Shown here piece after piece: positions 36,779 to 61,378 of a stretch of 64,000 bases of DNA (position 1 is its first letter; the number at the start of each line of letters is the position of its first letter). Both the position numbers and the translations under genes were made by a program. The DNA is from Caballeronia sp. TF1N1 (GTDB taxonomy: Bacteria > Pseudomonadota > Gammaproteobacteria > Burkholderiales > Burkholderiaceae), in contig NZ_CP084627.1 of assembly GCF_022878925.1 (NCBI RefSeq), positions 372,001-436,000 of the forward strand, read 5' to 3'. The notes under the pieces are model-generated. The model saw nothing but the letters and a program-made list of their open reading frames with translations, was not told the DNA's origin and ran no database searches.

Positions 36779-36790
36779 TTGTCTATACAA
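36779..36790. promoter_or_regulatory. candidate HutC operator 1 (hutU)
   Basis: TTGTCTATACAA, one mismatch from a perfect palindrome, 143 bp before the hutU start. Same pattern as the sites before hutH. Confidence 0.7.
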
Positions 36791-36843: not shown

Positions 36844-36855
36844 TTGTATATACAA
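36844..36855. promoter_or_regulatory. candidate HutC operator 2 (hutU)
   Basis: TTGTATATACAA, a perfect 12-bp palindrome matching the TGTATATACA core reported for HutC sites in Pseudomonas. It is 78 bp before hutU. A related half-repeat ATACAATGAAAGTTGTAT begins at 36832. Confidence 0.8.
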
Positions 36856-36932: not shown

Positions 36933-38621
36933 GTGACCTCATCTTTCCGTTATCGCGACACTGAAATTCGCGCCCCGCGCGGCGCACGACTCAATGCCAA
37001 AAGCTGGCTGACCGAGGCACCGCTGCGCATGCTGATGAACAATCTCGACCCGGAAGTCGCCGAGAATCCGCGCGAACTGGTGGTCTATGGCGGAATTGGC
37101 CGCGCGGCGCGTGACTGGCCGAGCTTCGACAAGATCGTCGAAACGCTCAAGCGGCTCGAAGCGGATGAAACCCTGCTGATTCAATCGGGCAAACCGGTTG
37201 GCGTCTTCAAGACGCATGAGAACGCGCCGCGCGTGCTCATCGCCAATTCGAATCTCGTGCCGCACTGGGCGAACTGGGAGCATTTCAACGAACTCGACGC
37301 CAAAGGTCTCGCCATGTACGGTCAGATGACGGCGGGAAGCTGGATCTACATCGGTAGCCAGGGAATCGTGCAGGGCACGTATGAAACCTTCGTCGAAGCC
37401 GGTCGGCAGCATTACGGCGGCGATCTCAAGGGACGCTGGGTGCTGACCGCCGGACTTGGCGGCATGGGTGGCGCGCAGCCGCTCGCCGCGACGCTCGCGG
37501 GCGTGTGTTCGCTCAATATCGAATGCCAGCAGAGCCGGATCGATTTCCGTCTGAAGACACGTTATGTCGATGAACAAGCCACCGATCTCGACGATGCCCT
37601 TGCCCGCATGCAGCAATACACGTCCGAAGGACGCGCGGTGTCAGTCGCACTCTGCGGGAACGCCGCCGATGTTCTGCCCGAACTCGTGCGCCGTGGCGTG
37701 CGCCCGGACCTCGTGACCGATCAGACGAGCGCGCACGATCCGCTCAACGGCTATCTGCCGAACGGCTGGACGTGGGCGCAGTATCGCGACCGCGCGCAAA
37801 GCGATCCGCAGGGCACGGTGAAGGCGGCGAAGCAATCGATGGCCGAACACGTGCGGGCAATGCTCGCCTTCCGCGAACAAGGCGTGCCGGTGTTCGATTA
37901 CGGCAACAACATCCGCCAGATGGCCAAGGACGAAGGCGTCACGAAGGCGTTCGATTTCCCCGGCTTCGTGCCCGCTTATATCCGGCCGCTGTTTTGCCGG
38001 GGCGTCGGACCGTTCCGTTGGGCCGCGCTTTCTGGCGATCCGCAGGACATCTACAAGACCGACGCGAAGGTGAAGGAGCTGATCGCGGACGACGCGCATC
38101 TGCATCGCTGGCTCGACATGGCGCGCGAACGCATCAGCTTCCAGGGCTTGCCGGCGCGCATCTGCTGGGTCGGCCTCGGGCAACGCGCGAAGCTCGGCCT
38201 CGCGTTCAACGAGATGGTGCGCAACGGCGAGCTGTCCGCGCCGGTGGTGATCGGCCGCGATCATCTCGATTCCGGTTCGGTCGCGAGCCCCAACCGCGAG
38301 ACCGAATCGATGCGGGACGGCTCGGACGCCGTCTCCGACTGGCCGCTTCTCAACGCGCTGCTCAACACGGCGAGCGGCGCAACGTGGGTATCGATCCATC
38401 ACGGCGGCGGCGTCGGCATGGGCTTTTCGCAGCACGCGGGCGTCGTGATCGTCTGCGATGGCAGCGTCGAAGCCGACGCGCGTATCGCCCGCGTGCTGCA
38501 TAACGATCCGGCCACCGGCGTCATGCGTCATGCCGATGCGGGCTACGACATCGCCGTCGACTGCGCGCGCGAGCAAGGCCTCGACTTGCCGATGATCGAC
38601 GGAGCGAACGGCAAGCGATGA
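36933..38621 (+). CDS. hutU: urocanate hydratase
   Basis: A 562-residue NAD+-dependent enzyme for step 2 of histidine degradation, urocanate to imidazolonepropionate. GTG start at 36933 with AGGAG 8 bp upstream. Signatures include [44 protein letters not shown] with the NAD-binding loop, and [21 protein letters not shown]. Its stop overlaps the hutI start by ATGA, so both are translated together. Two HutC-type palindromes lie upstream. Confidence 0.97.
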
Positions 38622-50168: not shown

Positions 50169-51722
50169 ATGCCGTCAACGAAATCCAGCTCCATGCGCGC
50201 GCTTTTAGCCGCGAGCGCATGCGTATTCAGCGCGCTTGCCGCCGCGCCCGCGTTCGCCCAGAGCACCGCCGTGATGGCGGTGGCCTCGACCTTCACGACG
50301 ATGAACCCCTACGATGCCAACGACACGCTCTCGCAAGCGGTCGCCAAGTCGTTCTATCAAGGGCTCTTCGGCTTCGACAAGGATATGAAGATTCAGCCCG
50401 TGCTCGCGACGAGCTACGAAGCGAGTCCGGACGCGAAGGTCTACACGGTCAAGCTGCGGCAGGGCGTGAAGTTTCAGGACGGCACCGACTTCAACGCCGA
50501 AGCCGTGAAGACGACCTTCGATTGGGTCACGGACCCGAACAACAAGCTCAAGCGCTACGGTCTTTTCAACAAGATCGAGAAGACCGAAGTGATCGATCCG
50601 TACACGGTGAAGATCACGCTCAAGATGCCGTTTTCCGCGTTCATCAACGTGCTCGCGCATCCGGCGGGCGTGATGATTTCGCCCACCGCGTTGAAGCAAT
50701 ACGGCAAGGACATCGCGTTTCATCCGGTCGGCACGGGACCGTTCGAGTTCGTCGAATGGAAGCAGACCGACGACCTGAAGGTGAAGAAGTTCGCGGGCTA
50801 CTGGAAGAAAGGCTATCCGAAGATCGACATGATCGACTGGAAGCCGGTGGTCGATAACAACACGCGCGCCGCGCTCATGCAAACGGGCGAAGCGGACTTC
50901 GCTTTTTCGATTCCGTTCGAGCAGGCCGCGACGCTCAAGGCGAGCCCGAAGGTCGATCTGATCGCGGCGCCTTCCATCATTCAGCGCTACGTGAGCATGA
51001 ACACGTCGCAGAAGCCTTTCGATAATCCGAAGGTGCGTCAGGCGCTCAACTATGCGATCAACAAGGACGCGCTCGTGAAGGTCGCGTTTGCCGGTTACGC
51101 GGTGCCGTCCGAAGGCGTGGCGCCGCCGGGCGTGGACTTCTCCACCAAGCTCGGGCCGTGGAAATACGATCCGGCCAAGGCGCGCGAGCTGCTGAAGGAA
51201 GCGGGTTATCCGAACGGTTTCGAGACCGTGTTGTGGTCGGGCTATAACCACACGACGGCGCAGAAGATCATCCAGTTCGTGCAGCAGCAGCTGGCGCAAG
51301 TGGGCGTGAAGACCACGATCGAAGCGCTCGAAGCCGGCCAGCGCGTGCAACGCGTGGAAAGCGCGCCGGAGCCGGCCACCGCGCCGGTGCGCATGTACTA
51401 CGTCGGCTGGTCGTCGTCGACGGGCGAAGCGGACTGGGCCATCTCGCCCTTGCTCGCGAGTTCGTCGTTTCCGCCGAAGCTCTTCAACACGGCCTATTAC
51501 AAGAACGATACCGTCGATTCCGATCTGCAAAAGGCGCTCACCACGACCGACCGCAAGGAGAAGACGCAGCTTTACGCCGACGCGCAAAAGCGCATCTGGG
51601 ACGACGCCCCGTGGATCTTCCTCGTCACGGAGAAAGTGGTATATGCGCGCAGCAAGCGTCTGACGGGCGCTTACGTCATGCCCGACGGCTCGTTCAATTT
51701 CGACGACATCGCGATCAAGTAA
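50169..51722 (+). CDS. gsiB: periplasmic peptide/glutathione-binding protein
   Basis: A 517-residue solute-binding family 5 protein. The signal peptide [30 protein letters not shown] precedes [40 protein letters not shown]. Further landmarks are [27 protein letters not shown] and [19 protein letters not shown]. It delivers substrate to the GsiCD permease. A ribosome binding site AAAGGAG lies before the ATG. The gap to gsiA is 38 bp. Confidence 0.93.
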
Positions 51723-56734: not shown

Positions 56735-56746
56735 CTGTATAGACAA
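56735..56746. promoter_or_regulatory. candidate HutC operator 3 (hutH)
   Basis: CTGTATAGACAA, the complement reading TTGTCTATACAG, immediately after the GNAT stop and 108 bp before hutH. One base from site 1. Confidence 0.65.
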
Positions 56747-56833: not shown

Positions 56834-56845
56834 TTGTATAGACAG
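56834..56845. promoter_or_regulatory. candidate HutC operator 4 (hutH)
   Basis: TTGTATAGACAG, 9 bp before the hutH ATG, overlapping the likely ribosome binding site AGGAAGAA. Occupancy would block transcription directly at the start. Confidence 0.65.
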
Positions 56846-56853
56846 GAAGAAAC

Positions 56854-58395
56854 ATGATTACGCTCACGCCTGGCAAGCTCACGCTGCCGCAATTGCGCCG
56901 CATCGCGCGCGGATCGGATTCGCTAAGTCTCGATCCCGCGAGCTTCGCCGCCATCGACGCGAGCGCGCGCGCCGTCGCCGCGATCGCCGCCAAGGGTGAT
57001 CCGGCCTACGGCATCAATACGGGCTTTGGGCGGCTCGCCAACACTCACATTCCCGCCGATCAGCTCGAACTCCTGCAACGCAACCTGGTGCTGTCGCACG
57101 CGGTCGGCGTCGGCGAACCGATGTCGCGACCGGTCGTGCGTCTTTTGATGGCCCTCAAGCTGTCGAGTCTCGGGCGCGGCCATTCGGGCATTCGCCGCGA
57201 AGTGATCGACGCCCTCGTCACGCTTTTCAATGCCAATGTATTGCCCGTCATCCCCGTGAAAGGCTCGGTCGGCGCGTCGGGCGATCTCGCGCCGCTCGCG
57301 CATATGTCGACGGTGTTGCTCGGTATCGGCGAAGTCATGGTGCGCGGCGAACGCGCAAGCGCGCTCGATGGCCTCAAGCTGGCCGGGCTCGAACCGCTCA
57401 CGTTGCAGGCGAAGGAAGGGCTCGCGCTGTTGAACGGCACGCAGGCATCGGCGGCGCTCGCGCTTTACAACCTCTTTGCCATCGAGGACCTGTTCCGCAC
57501 CGGCCTCGTTGCGGGCGCGCTGTCCGTCGACGCGGCCGCGGGCTCCGTCGTGCCGTTCGATGCACGTATCCATGAGTTGCGCGGACATCGCGGGCAGATC
57601 GATTCGGCGGCGGCGTATCGCACGTTGCTGGCGGGCTCGGGCATCAACCTGTCGCACGCCGATTGCGAGAAGGTTCAGGACCCGTACAGCCTGCGCTGTC
57701 AGCCGCAAGTGATGGGCGCGTGTCTCGATCAGATGCGTCATGCGGCCGACGTGCTCTTGATCGAATCGAATGCGGTTTCCGACAATCCGCTGATTTTCCC
57801 GGACACGGGCGAAGTGCTCTCAGGCGGCAACTTTCACGCGGAACCCGTTGCCTTCGCCGCCGATAACCTCGCACTCGCCGCCGCCGAAATCGGCGCGCTG
57901 GCCGAGCGCCGCATCGCGCTTCTGATCGACTCAACGCTTTCCGGCTTGCCGCCGTTTCTCGTACGCGATGGCGGCGTGAACTCCGGCTTCATGATCGCGC
58001 ATGTGACGGCGGCGGCGCTCGCGTCCGAGAACAAGACGCTCGCGCATCCTGCTTCCGTCGATTCCTTGCCGACCTCGGCGAATCAGGAAGATCACGTGTC
58101 CATGGCGACCTTTGCCGCGCGCAAGCTCGGCGATATCGCGAGCAACACGGCCAATATTCTCGCCATCGAACTGCTTGCGGCAGCGCAAGGCGTCGATCTG
58201 CGCGCGCCGCATCGCACGAGCGCGCCACTTATCGACGTGATGCAGACGATCCGCGCGCAAGTCGCGCATTACGACCTCGATCATTACTTCGCGCCCGATA
58301 TCGCCGCCATTGCGACGCTCGTGCAGGCGGGCGAGATTGCAAAGCACAGTCCGTTTTCCTTTGCCTCGGAACAGAGCGCGGATCAGAGCGCATGA
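56854..58395 (+). CDS. hutH: histidine ammonia-lyase
   Basis: A 513-residue enzyme for step 1, histidine to urocanate and ammonia. The MIO cofactor forms from A141-S142-G143 in [26 protein letters not shown] near the start carries the catalytic tyrosine. [16 protein letters not shown] is the usual C-terminal motif. Its stop overlaps the hutC start by ATGA. The HutC-type palindrome directly before it suggests induction by urocanate. Confidence 0.97.
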
Positions 58396-59087
58396 GCACG
58401 CCCGCGTATCAGGAGATCAAGGACTACATCCTCGAGCGCATTCACGGCGGCGAATGGAAGGAGGGCGATCAGGTGCCCTCCGAGAACGAGCTCGCGCGCG
58501 AGTTCAAAGTGGCGCGCATGACGGTGAATCGCGCGGTGCGTGAACTGACGGCCGAACAGGTGCTCACGCGTGTGCAGGGCGCGGGCACGTTCGTGGCGCA
58601 GCCGAAATACGCTTCGACACTGGTCGAGATTCGCAGTATCTCCGATGAAATCGTCGCGCGCGGGCATGCGTATCGCGCGGCGGTGCTGCATCTGGGTGCC
58701 TCTATCGTCGATGAAGCGCTAGCCGCCGAAATGCAGCTTGCGCTCGGTAGTCCCGTGTTTCATTCGCGCGTGCTGCACTTCGAAAACGACGAGCCCGTGC
58801 AACTCGAAGAGCGCTACGTGAACCCGGCCATTGCGCCCGAGTACGCGCGTCAGGACTTCACGAAGATCACGCCGAATCAATATCTGATGGTGGCCGCGCC
58901 CTTGCAGCGGGTCGAATATCGGATCGAGGCGTCGTTGCCATCGCCGGAGATTCGCCATGCGCTCGCGATGAAAGATCACGAACCGTGTCTGCTGCTGCAT
59001 CGGCGAACATGGTCGCGCGACACGGTGGCGTCGGTCGCGAATCTGTGGCATCCCGGCGACCGCTATCAGTTCACCGGCCACTTTTGA
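58392..59087 (+). CDS. hutC: histidine-utilisation repressor HutC
   Basis: A 231-residue GntR/HutC-family repressor. The winged helix is at about 8-72: [65 protein letters not shown] ligand domain follows, with [23 protein letters not shown] and LLLHRRTWS. Urocanate is the known inducer. It probably binds the four TTGTNTATACAA-type sites in this window and so autoregulates the hutH operon and controls hutUI. Confidence 0.95.
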
Positions 59088-59089
59088 TC

Positions 59090-59665
59090 ATGGCAACCGT
59101 CCTGCGCGCATCATCGCTCGCGGCCGTGCCGTGGAAGAACGGCGGCGGCATTACGCGCGAACTCGCGGCGGAACCGGAAGGCGCGTCGATGGATACGTTC
59201 GCGTGGCGGCTTTCCATCGCGGATGTGTCGGCGGATGGCGCGTTTTCGAGCTTCGCGGGCGTGGATCGCGTGCTGATCCTGCTCGATGGCGCGGGCATGA
59301 TGCTCGCCGAACCCGACTATGTACATACGTTGAACGAGCCGCTCGCGATGGCGCGCTTTGCCGGCGAAACGCCCATCCACGCGGCGCTCGTGCAAGGTCC
59401 GACGCGCGACTTCAACGTGATGACGCGTCGCGGTCGCGCGCATGCTTCGGTGACGAGCCGCTTCGAGTCGCATGAATGGACGCCGGACCACGACGTCACG
59501 TTTCTGCATTGCGCGCGCGGCATGTTGAACGTCATGCTGGCCCATGGAGAACGCATCGCGCTCGCAGCGGGCGACAGCTTGCGTATCGAAAGCGCGGACG
59601 GACGCGTCGCGTGCGAAGCATCGCAAGATGCGTCGTGGTTGCAGATAGGCATCCATACGCCGTGA
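59090..59665 (+). CDS. hutD: HutD family protein
   Basis: A 191-residue bicupin-like protein starting MATVLRASSLAAVPWKNGGGITRELAAEPEG, the diagnostic HutD opening. HutD is thought to be a governor that limits hut expression by binding formylglutamate or urocanate; it is not a catabolic enzyme. It begins 2 bp after hutC. The stop TGA is overlapped by GTG, the apparent start of the hutF remnant. Confidence 0.92.
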   Translation: MATVLRASSLAAVPWKNGGGITRELAAEPEGASMDTFAWRLSIADVSADGAFSSFAGVDRVLILLDGAGMMLAEPDYVHTLNEPLAMARFAGETPIHAALVQGPTRDFNVMTRRGRAHASVTSRFESHEWTPDHDVTFLHCARGMLNVMLAHGERIALAAGDSLRIESADGRVACEASQDASWLQIGIHTP

Positions 59666-59936
59666 ACGCGTGGATCGCGCCAGATGCCCGATGGCTGGCG
59701 ACGCAACATGATGCTCGAATGGATGGAAGACGGCCAACGCGTGCGGCATCGCGCCAACTATCTTTTCGATGCCGCGCTCGACGGAGGAACGCGGCTCCAA
59801 AAGCTGGCTTTCCGATAGGGTTTTCTGCGAGCATGGTGAATCGCCGAAACGCGACGTCTTCGTCGGCGGATGCAAGATCATCGACGCAAGTTGTCAGGCG
59901 GACGAAGACGCACTGCGTTCATTCATCGACTACTAA
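59662..59936 (+). pseudogene. hutF: formimidoylglutamate deiminase remnant (hutF), deleted and frameshifted
   Basis: Only about 275 bp remain of a gene normally near 1.35 kb. Frame 1 (from 59684) reads PDGWRRNMMLEW, matching the HutF N-terminus (LPEGW-R-V). It continues to NYLFDAALDGGTR, matching the YDAALAGGAQAL segment near the C-terminus, and stops at 59816-59818. The last part, in another frame (59820-59936), reads VFCEHGESPKRDVFVGG and ends ...DALRSFIDY, matching the end of HutF. The GTG overlapping the hutD stop starts yet another frame, VNAWIAPDAR. The catalytic metal-binding core is absent, so no deiminase can be made. Confidence 0.88.
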
Positions 59937-59951
59937 AACGCGAGGCATCAC

Positions 59952-60755
59952 ATGGACGATTGTGCGATCTACACGCTCGAGCGCGGCACGGCGCCGTTGC
60001 TCATCTCGATCCCGCACCGCGGCACGCGTATACCCGACGGGCTCGCGCAAGAAATGACGCCGGTCGCGCGGAAAGTGGATGATTGCGACTGGCATCTCGA
60101 ACGGCTTTATGACTTTGCGCGCGAGATGGGCGCGTCGATTCTGCTGCCGCAATTCGCGCGCTATGTCATCGATTTGAATCGTCCGCCCGATGACGCCAGT
60201 CTTTATCCGGGCCGCGATACGACTGGCCTCTGTCCCGTCGATACGTTCGAGAAAGAGCCGCTTTATCTCGCAGGTCATGAGCCTTCACGCGAACAGATCG
60301 AGGCGCGCCGCGCGCTCTACTGGCAGCCTTATCACGATGCGCTCGCTTCCGAACTCGCCGCCTTGCGCGAGGAACATGGGCACGCGTTGCTGTGGGAGGC
60401 GCACTCCATTCGCTCAGTCGTGCCGCGCTTCTTCAATGGCCGGCTCACGGATTTCAACTTCGGCACGGCGGATGGAGCATCGGCGGCGCCTGAACTGGCC
60501 GAGCGGCTCGCGCAGGTCGTGGAGTCGGACGGACGTTACACAACGGTGGCTAACGGGCGCTTCAAGGGCGGTTACATAACGCGTCGCTACGGTCAGCCGG
60601 CCAACGGGATTCACGCAGTGCAACTGGAGCTCACGCAGGCCACTTACATGAACGAGGCACCGCCTTATTCCTACGATGAGGCGCGCGCGAGCGACGTTCA
60701 GCCCTTGTTGCGGGAGTTGGTCGCCGCGGCGTTGGAGCATGTGAAAGCGCCCTGA
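59952..60755 (+). CDS. hutG: N-formylglutamate deformylase (amidohydrolase)
   Basis: A 267-residue zinc enzyme for the last step, N-formyl-L-glutamate to glutamate and formate. ISIPHRGTRIPDGL and LWEAHSIRSVVPRFFNGRLTDFNFGTADG contain the metal-binding histidines, and NGIHAVQLELTQATYM the late conserved part. It depends on N-formylglutamate made by HutF, whose gene is broken just upstream. The frame and motifs of hutG itself look intact. Confidence 0.95.
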   Translation: MDDCAIYTLERGTAPLLISIPHRGTRIPDGLAQEMTPVARKVDDCDWHLERLYDFAREMGASILLPQFARYVIDLNRPPDDASLYPGRDTTGLCPVDTFEKEPLYLAGHEPSREQIEARRALYWQPYHDALASELAALREEHGHALLWEAHSIRSVVPRFFNGRLTDFNFGTADGASAAPELAERLAQVVESDGRYTTVANGRFKGGYITRRYGQPANGIHAVQLELTQATYMNEAPPYSYDEARASDVQPLLRELVAAALEHVKAP

Positions 60756-61066: not shown

Positions 61067-61378
61067 ATGATCAAGTCTTTCGTTCCGGCTCTCGTTATTG
61101 CTTCGGCTCTGGCCGCTCCGACTTTCGCCTTTGCACAAAGCAACGGCCCTGTGACCCGCGCAGAAGTTCGCGCCGAGCTGGTCCAGTTGGAAAAGGCTGG
61201 CTATAACCCGTCGACGGACCACGCGTTCTACCCGCAAAACATTCAGGCAGCCGAAGCGCGCGTGGATGCACAGCAAGGTACGTCGTCGTACGGCGCATCG
61301 ACTGCGGGTTCGTCGCAAGCGGGCGCACGTCCGTCAGCGTCGATGTCGGATCGTAACTCGGTCTACTTCGGTCATTAA
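61067..61378 (+). CDS. DUF4148 secreted small protein
   Basis: A 103-residue exported protein. Signal peptide MIKSFVPALVIASALAAPTFAFA, then QSNGPVTRAEVRAELVQLEKAGYNPSTDHAFYPQNIQAAEARV, the DUF4148 core found in many copies in Burkholderiaceae. The tail is S/G/A-rich. Function unknown. AGGAGG 8 bp before the ATG suggests strong translation. A terminator follows 130 bp downstream. Confidence 0.92.
   Translation: MIKSFVPALVIASALAAPTFAFAQSNGPVTRAEVRAELVQLEKAGYNPSTDHAFYPQNIQAAEARVDAQQGTSSYGASTAGSSQAGARPSASMSDRNSVYFGH

Follow-up and report, generated by a model that had tools for sequence, protein, structure and literature searches.

The window analysed here is a stretch of 64,000 nucleotides, C2:372001-436000 of the 7.07 Mb, nine-contig genome of Caballeronia sp. 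TF1N1 (the source genome). It carries hutU and hutI side by side and, about 17 kb beyond the end of hutI, a cluster in the order hutH-hutC-hutD-(hutF remnant)-hutG. The genes, the pieces of hutF and the sites resembling HutC operators are listed below by position in the window; no strand is assigned to the operator-like sites.

36844..36855, HutC-operator-like palindrome TTGTATATACAA upstream of hutU, with a one-mismatch copy at 36779-36790
36963..38594, plus strand, hutU (urocanate hydratase), TIGR01228 1008.8 bits, no stops; intact and the only match in the genome
38678..39808, plus strand, hutI (imidazolonepropionase), TIGR01224 500.7 bits; intact and the only match over the cut-off
56735..56746, HutC-operator-like site upstream of hutH, copy 1, two mismatches
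56834..56845, HutC-operator-like site upstream of hutH, copy 2, two mismatches
56854..58395, plus strand, hutH (histidine ammonia-lyase), TIGR01225 688 bits; intact and the only match
58392..59087, plus strand, hutC (GntR-family repressor), TIGR02018 311 bits
59090..59665, plus strand, hutD, Pfam HutD 2.6e-53
59685..59734, plus strand, hutF remnant 1, hutF nt 38-87, 84% (50 nt) to the hutF of strain M1242, blastn E 1e-11
59753..59787, plus strand, hutF remnant 2, hutF nt 1090-1124, 83% (35 nt) to M1242 hutF, blastn E 3e-6
59819..59908, plus strand, hutF remnant 3, hutF nt 1248-1337, 74% over 90 nt
59952..60755, plus strand, hutG (N-formylglutamate deformylase), TIGR02017 352 bits; intact

The genome holds one copy each of hutH, hutU and hutI over the cut-off, all within the window. 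The first-pass annotation of this DNA described an otherwise intact hut operon. hutH and hutG are indeed open, but hutU and hutI are not part of the cluster and sit about 17 kb upstream of it. They are likewise absent from the cluster in 28 of 28 intact loci with the same layout, and the spacing between hutI and hutH is 16-17 kb in ten other non-reduced genomes searched, so the split arrangement is common to the group and is not damage. The integrity claimed for hutG is borne out by its TIGR02017 score and its low dN/dS (dN 0.09-0.11, dS 0.78-1.09 against four relatives). Between the two groups of hut genes lies the gene for GsiB, an ABC binding protein of glutathione type (838.8 bits, 50169-51722), adjoined by transporter genes read by eye. 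A small DUF4148 protein is encoded after hutG (61067-61378); in G047 and G039, two genomes of the genus that lack both hutF and hutG at this locus, the hutD region is followed directly by a gene with a nearly identical start.

The gap between the hutD stop (59665) and the hutG start (59952) spans 59666-59951. Its contents were compared with the intact hutF at the same position in Caballeronia sp. M1242 (G049; 1383 nt, 461 codons), taking block positions from local matches; a global alignment of the interval smeared the blocks. The three remnants are collinear with the M1242 gene and preserve codons 13-29, 364-375 and 416-446 of the 461. Within remnant 3 the first 61 nt (59819-59879) are 82% identical to M1242 hutF (blastn E 3e-13), and the frame extends to a TAA at 59934-59936. 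Matches in remnants 1, 2 and 3 number 42, 29 and 67, against maxima of 28, 22 and 44 in 300 letter shuffles per block, with remnant 3 scored as 90 nt (to 59908). Three ordered blocks, detected by blastn and exceeding the shuffles, confirm that three hutF remnants lie between hutD and hutG. The stated loss of a catalytic core of about 1.1 kb is also correct, with 1002 nt missing between remnants 1 and 2 and 123 nt between 2 and 3; codons 30-363 are absent from 59666-59936 and no open frame retains the core. The remnants had further been placed in different frames, which holds for remnant 3 but not for remnants 1 and 2, which share one 44-codon frame from an ATG at 59684 to a TAG, making two frames rather than three.

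A second type of hutF occurs in a gene cassette, found on contig C4 of this genome and described below. Intact hut-locus hutF genes are identical to the remnant at 122-139 of 175 nt (16 of 28 genes), compared with 110-120 of 175 nt for the cassette genes (eight of nine; the ninth, from G027, is too short to score). The remnant is therefore of the hut-locus type rather than a duplicate of the C4 gene. Judged from its sequence, 59666-59936 is a deletion pseudogene of the ancestral hutF of a HutC-controlled hutH-C-D-F-G cluster. An assembly error concealing a truly intact hutF is scarcely credible: misassembly does not typically yield short, diverged pieces, here three in collinear order and separated by filler, and hutF is lost in other ways at this position in four further genomes.

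The functional counterpart of the lost gene appears to lie on another contig:

C4:24858-26255, hutF, second copy, 466 aa, TIGR02022 599.8 bits against a cut-off of 413.05, model positions 3-453 of 455, no stops

This is the sole HutF over the cut-off in the genome, with 859 bits against its best equivalog, formimidoylglutamate deiminase. The protein aligns to the solved Pseudomonas HutF 3mdu over residues 7-462, and in this alignment the motifs NLHSH, VHIHIAEQ and GIGSDSH, which we take to surround the metal site of HutF, are identical. Comparison with seven relatives gives dN 0.09-0.11, dS 0.52-0.77 and dN/dS of about 0.13-0.17. The gene order is IclR, family-3 solute-binding protein (SBP), permease, ATPase and hutF. 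The intergenic distances in that order are 40 bases, 17 bases, a slight overlap and 36 bases, and from this close spacing the five genes probably form one operon. The IclR protein has both IclR_C and HTH_IclR Pfam domains over the gathering score, and the transporter encoded behind it is an amino-acid-type ABC transporter.

Replacement by another HutF, replacement by a HutE-type enzyme and recent loss of histidine use had all been put forward to account for the missing step. The first is supported by the full-length C4 HutF together with HutH, HutU, HutI and HutG, all open and over their cut-offs. The second is not supported by the one arginase-family model run across the genome, that for formimidoylglutamase (TIGR01227), which yields no enzyme over its cut-off; its lone match in the genome scores 126.4 against 229.15 bits, is over the agmatinase cut-off and is closest to guanidinobutyrase 3nio. 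Recent loss finds no support in the sequence, given the same open genes and a full-length HutF, and by gene content the histidine pathway looks complete. We consider it very probable that the dead hut-locus hutF is covered by the second HutF on C4, encoded in a probable IclR-SBP-permease-ATPase-hutF operon.

The fate of hutF was followed across a genus set of 58 genomes, of which 33 non-reduced genomes with a hutH-C-D-F-G locus entered the contingency count. Those left out were 13 genomes with a full hut operon only, G043, G019 (reduced, hutF broken, no cassette) and ten reduced or fragmentary genomes (G003, G005, G009, G015, G026, G027, G044, G045, G050, G056); G002 and G006 were counted although hutD was undetected there. 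Eight non-reduced genomes of the genus carry the IclR-SBP-permease-ATPase-HutF cassette. Absence of the cassette means absence of a cassette-type HutF over the cut-off, a definition under which a cassette without hutF would escape detection.

At the hut locus hutF is intact in 28 of the 33 genomes and lost in five (the source genome, G000, with G007, G013, G039 and G047). Losses fall in five of eight cassette carriers and in none of 25 non-carriers (Fisher p 2.4e-4, for a contrast drawn post hoc and with relatedness ignored; p 1.1e-3 once G019 is added). Three carriers (G017, G025, G038) retain both copies. An extra HutF is also present in three of the 25 non-carriers, in a full hut operon in G002 and G006 and through a doubled locus in G051, yet all three keep the hut-locus gene, and redundancy alone therefore does not bring loss. 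The hutH-C-D-F-G locus of G051 apparently occurs twice on one contig in opposite directions, with HutF of equal score at C11:65402-66772 and 165359-166729. Parsimony on an rpoB tree of 48 of the 58 genomes, the bootstrap of which had not settled, requires four changes for hutF loss and six for the cassette. Of the summed terminal branches of the 33 genomes, carriers account for 24.7% by length, giving a crude chance of 0.004 that all four losses would fall there. An independent-pairs test, which allows for relatedness, found agreement in two to three of four pairs and opposition in none, the rest being equal; with so few pairs the result is not significant (median p 0.25).

What is left of hutF differs among the losers: the two ends only in G007, mainly codons 368-430 in G013, and the start plus codons 277-314 in G047, while local matching gave no credible hutF piece at the G039 locus. 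In none of the five is HutH, HutU or HutI truncated or interrupted by a stop. The hut-locus hutG is kept in G007, G013 and the source genome, and lost in G039 and G047, both of which have a cassette hutG. The source genome is a case of reciprocal loss: hutD and hutG survive at the hut locus, and of the three hut genes only hutF survives in the cassette. On this evidence the replacement of hutF by a second copy seems to have occurred several times in related species. The remnant in the window is in itself an ordinary pseudogene, and its interest lies in this repeated replacement.

G019, the reduced genome without a cassette, has a hutF cut after about 90 codons, broken hutH and hutU, and pieces of the locus on two contigs. 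Its loss of hutF in the absence of a cassette counts against replacement, though hutH and hutU are also broken there. Those breaks, the clearly dead hutF of the source genome and the additional loss of hutG at the hut locus of G039 and G047 would suit a histidine catabolism that is being lost, with hutF the first gene to go and the rest to follow. We think this very unlikely for the source genome, where HutH, HutU, HutI and HutG are open and over their cut-offs, HutG has a low dN/dS and a conserved full-length HutF is present.

The cassette is usually larger than its C4 version. HutG stands behind the cassette HutF in seven of the eight carriers (all except the source genome), and HutD before it in six (absent from the source genome and G038). 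Cassettes with HutG were found in at least 14 named loci of Caballeronia, Paraburkholderia and Burkholderia among the best 80 of 551 matched loci, three of the 14 already belonging to the genus set. The same best 80 of 551 include at least five Paraburkholderia or Burkholderia genomes with a cassette and another hut operon including hutF (contig ends truncate two of the five operons), and such coexistence counts against replacement. The cassette HutF proteins form a clade of their own (nine rows, SH-aLRT 99) apart from 28 hut-locus proteins in a tree made by a quick method. With the G013 cassette as query, similarity to other loci of the genus covers about 5.9 kb, with none seen beyond it in the matches listed. 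The source-genome query gave only short extra matches outside the cassette: one fell within an ABC ATPase, and another, in G038, covered 350 bases at 70%. The differing surroundings of the cassette suggest that it may be mobile as a unit.

Damaged cassettes are present in G027 (60% complete) and G044 (reduced), with no hut-locus copy seen in either. G021 has a strongly diverged IclR-SBP-permease-ATPase-HutF cluster (C75:1451-5832; HutF 63%, IclR 51%) without HutG or HutD, and also a full hut operon. A further HutG gene in the source genome spans both ends of contig C4, beside a LysR regulator, and its division over the ends suggests that C4 is circular. Genes read by eye from the open reading frames near it encode a betaine-type ABC transporter, a nitrilase-like protein and a Rieske oxygenase. 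Other genomes of the genus also contain stand-alone hutG genes like the one at the C4 ends. The C4-end gene was rejected as the cassette's own hutG because it groups with the stand-alone hutG of G006, G052 and G054 (SH-aLRT 95) in a quick tree with some long branches.

The two hutF contexts also differ in their upstream sites. The HutC-like pattern has four matches at two or fewer mismatches in the window against 0.15 expected; the sites at hutH were found with a looser pattern, a stricter first one having missed them. Such palindromes are present at 32 of 33 hut loci (31 with two sites and one with one; the last is cut by a contig end) and at all six full hut operons sampled. None was found at 24 cassette loci (21 distinct), nor within 20 kb around the C4 hutF at two or fewer mismatches. 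The surviving hutF has thus probably left the HutC regulon. All eight aligned regions upstream of the cassette retain GGGAAT together with a left arm resembling ATTCCC, and this element is a possible IclR operator.

The lack of HutC-like sites at cassette loci, and the placement of the C4 hutF after genes for a separate regulator and an ABC transporter, would also fit a HutF that serves only imported formiminoglutamate or another compound and is off during histidine growth, so that histidine breakdown stalls. This has a low probability in our estimation, since the upstream hut genes remain open in five of five losers and a stalled pathway would accumulate formiminoglutamate, which is called a toxic intermediate in Pseudomonas in the portion of PMC12977541 available to us. 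The same portion holds tight control of hutF to be important and describes an IclR-type regulator, HutR, as formiminoglutamate-inducible and co-transcribed with hutE. By analogy with this pair, the cassette IclR may sense formiminoglutamate, and hutF may be switched on by its own substrate.

Under replacement of the hut-locus gene by the C4 copy, HutH, HutU and HutI encoded on C2 would act first, followed by HutF from C4 and then HutG from C2. Redundancy would have let the first hutF decay, the IclR protein would control the C4 gene, possibly in response to formiminoglutamate, and the ABC transporter would import formiminoglutamate or a related compound. A broader proposal, which we put forward tentatively and hold to be rather doubtful in full, is that the cassette (IclR-ABC-HutD-HutF-HutG) might be a mobile, formiminoglutamate-inducible unit for uptake and degradation, whose arrival repeatedly lets the HutC-controlled hutF decay. 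Reciprocal degeneration would here have left one copy each of hutD, hutF and hutG, with histidine catabolism needing two replicons and two regulators, and hutF under feed-forward control by its toxic substrate.

Related species offer a natural series of genomes with both copies intact, with hutF lost, with hutF and hutG lost, and with reciprocal loss. The series bears on the way an original gene yields to a second copy, with one step of a pathway passing to another regulon and replicon. The conserved cassette also leads to the prediction that Caballeronia and Paraburkholderia take up and use formiminoglutamate or a related compound. The titles and abstract openings of the literature searched, which covered few subscription journals, make no mention of an IclR-ABC-HutF cassette.

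As in the HutC regulon of Proteobacteria outlined in the part of PMC5343134 at hand, hutH and hutU here carry HutC-like palindromes; unlike in that regulon, the remaining hutF is not near a HutC-like site, and that part of the paper says nothing of hutF being controlled by an IclR protein. The C4 protein resembles known HutF (TIGR02022; 3mdu) in being full length, over the cut-off and identical in three motifs. Its gene differs in its location, on a separate contig downstream of genes for an IclR regulator and an ABC transporter and not within the HutC-like regulon; the hut-cluster copy itself is dead. The nearest parallel is the HutE/HutR branch of Pseudomonas aeruginosa PAO1, which, as far as the accessible text of PMC12977541 goes, is likewise a second, probably horizontally acquired route for removing formiminoglutamate with an IclR-type regulator. 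The PAO1 regulator is called formiminoglutamate-inducible in that text; the cassette regulator has the IclR domain architecture. In contrast to the PAO1 branch as presented there, the probable second route in Caballeronia sp. TF1N1 has another HutF, an amidohydrolase, as its enzyme, is accompanied by an ABC transporter and is found in a genome from which the primary hutF is gone.
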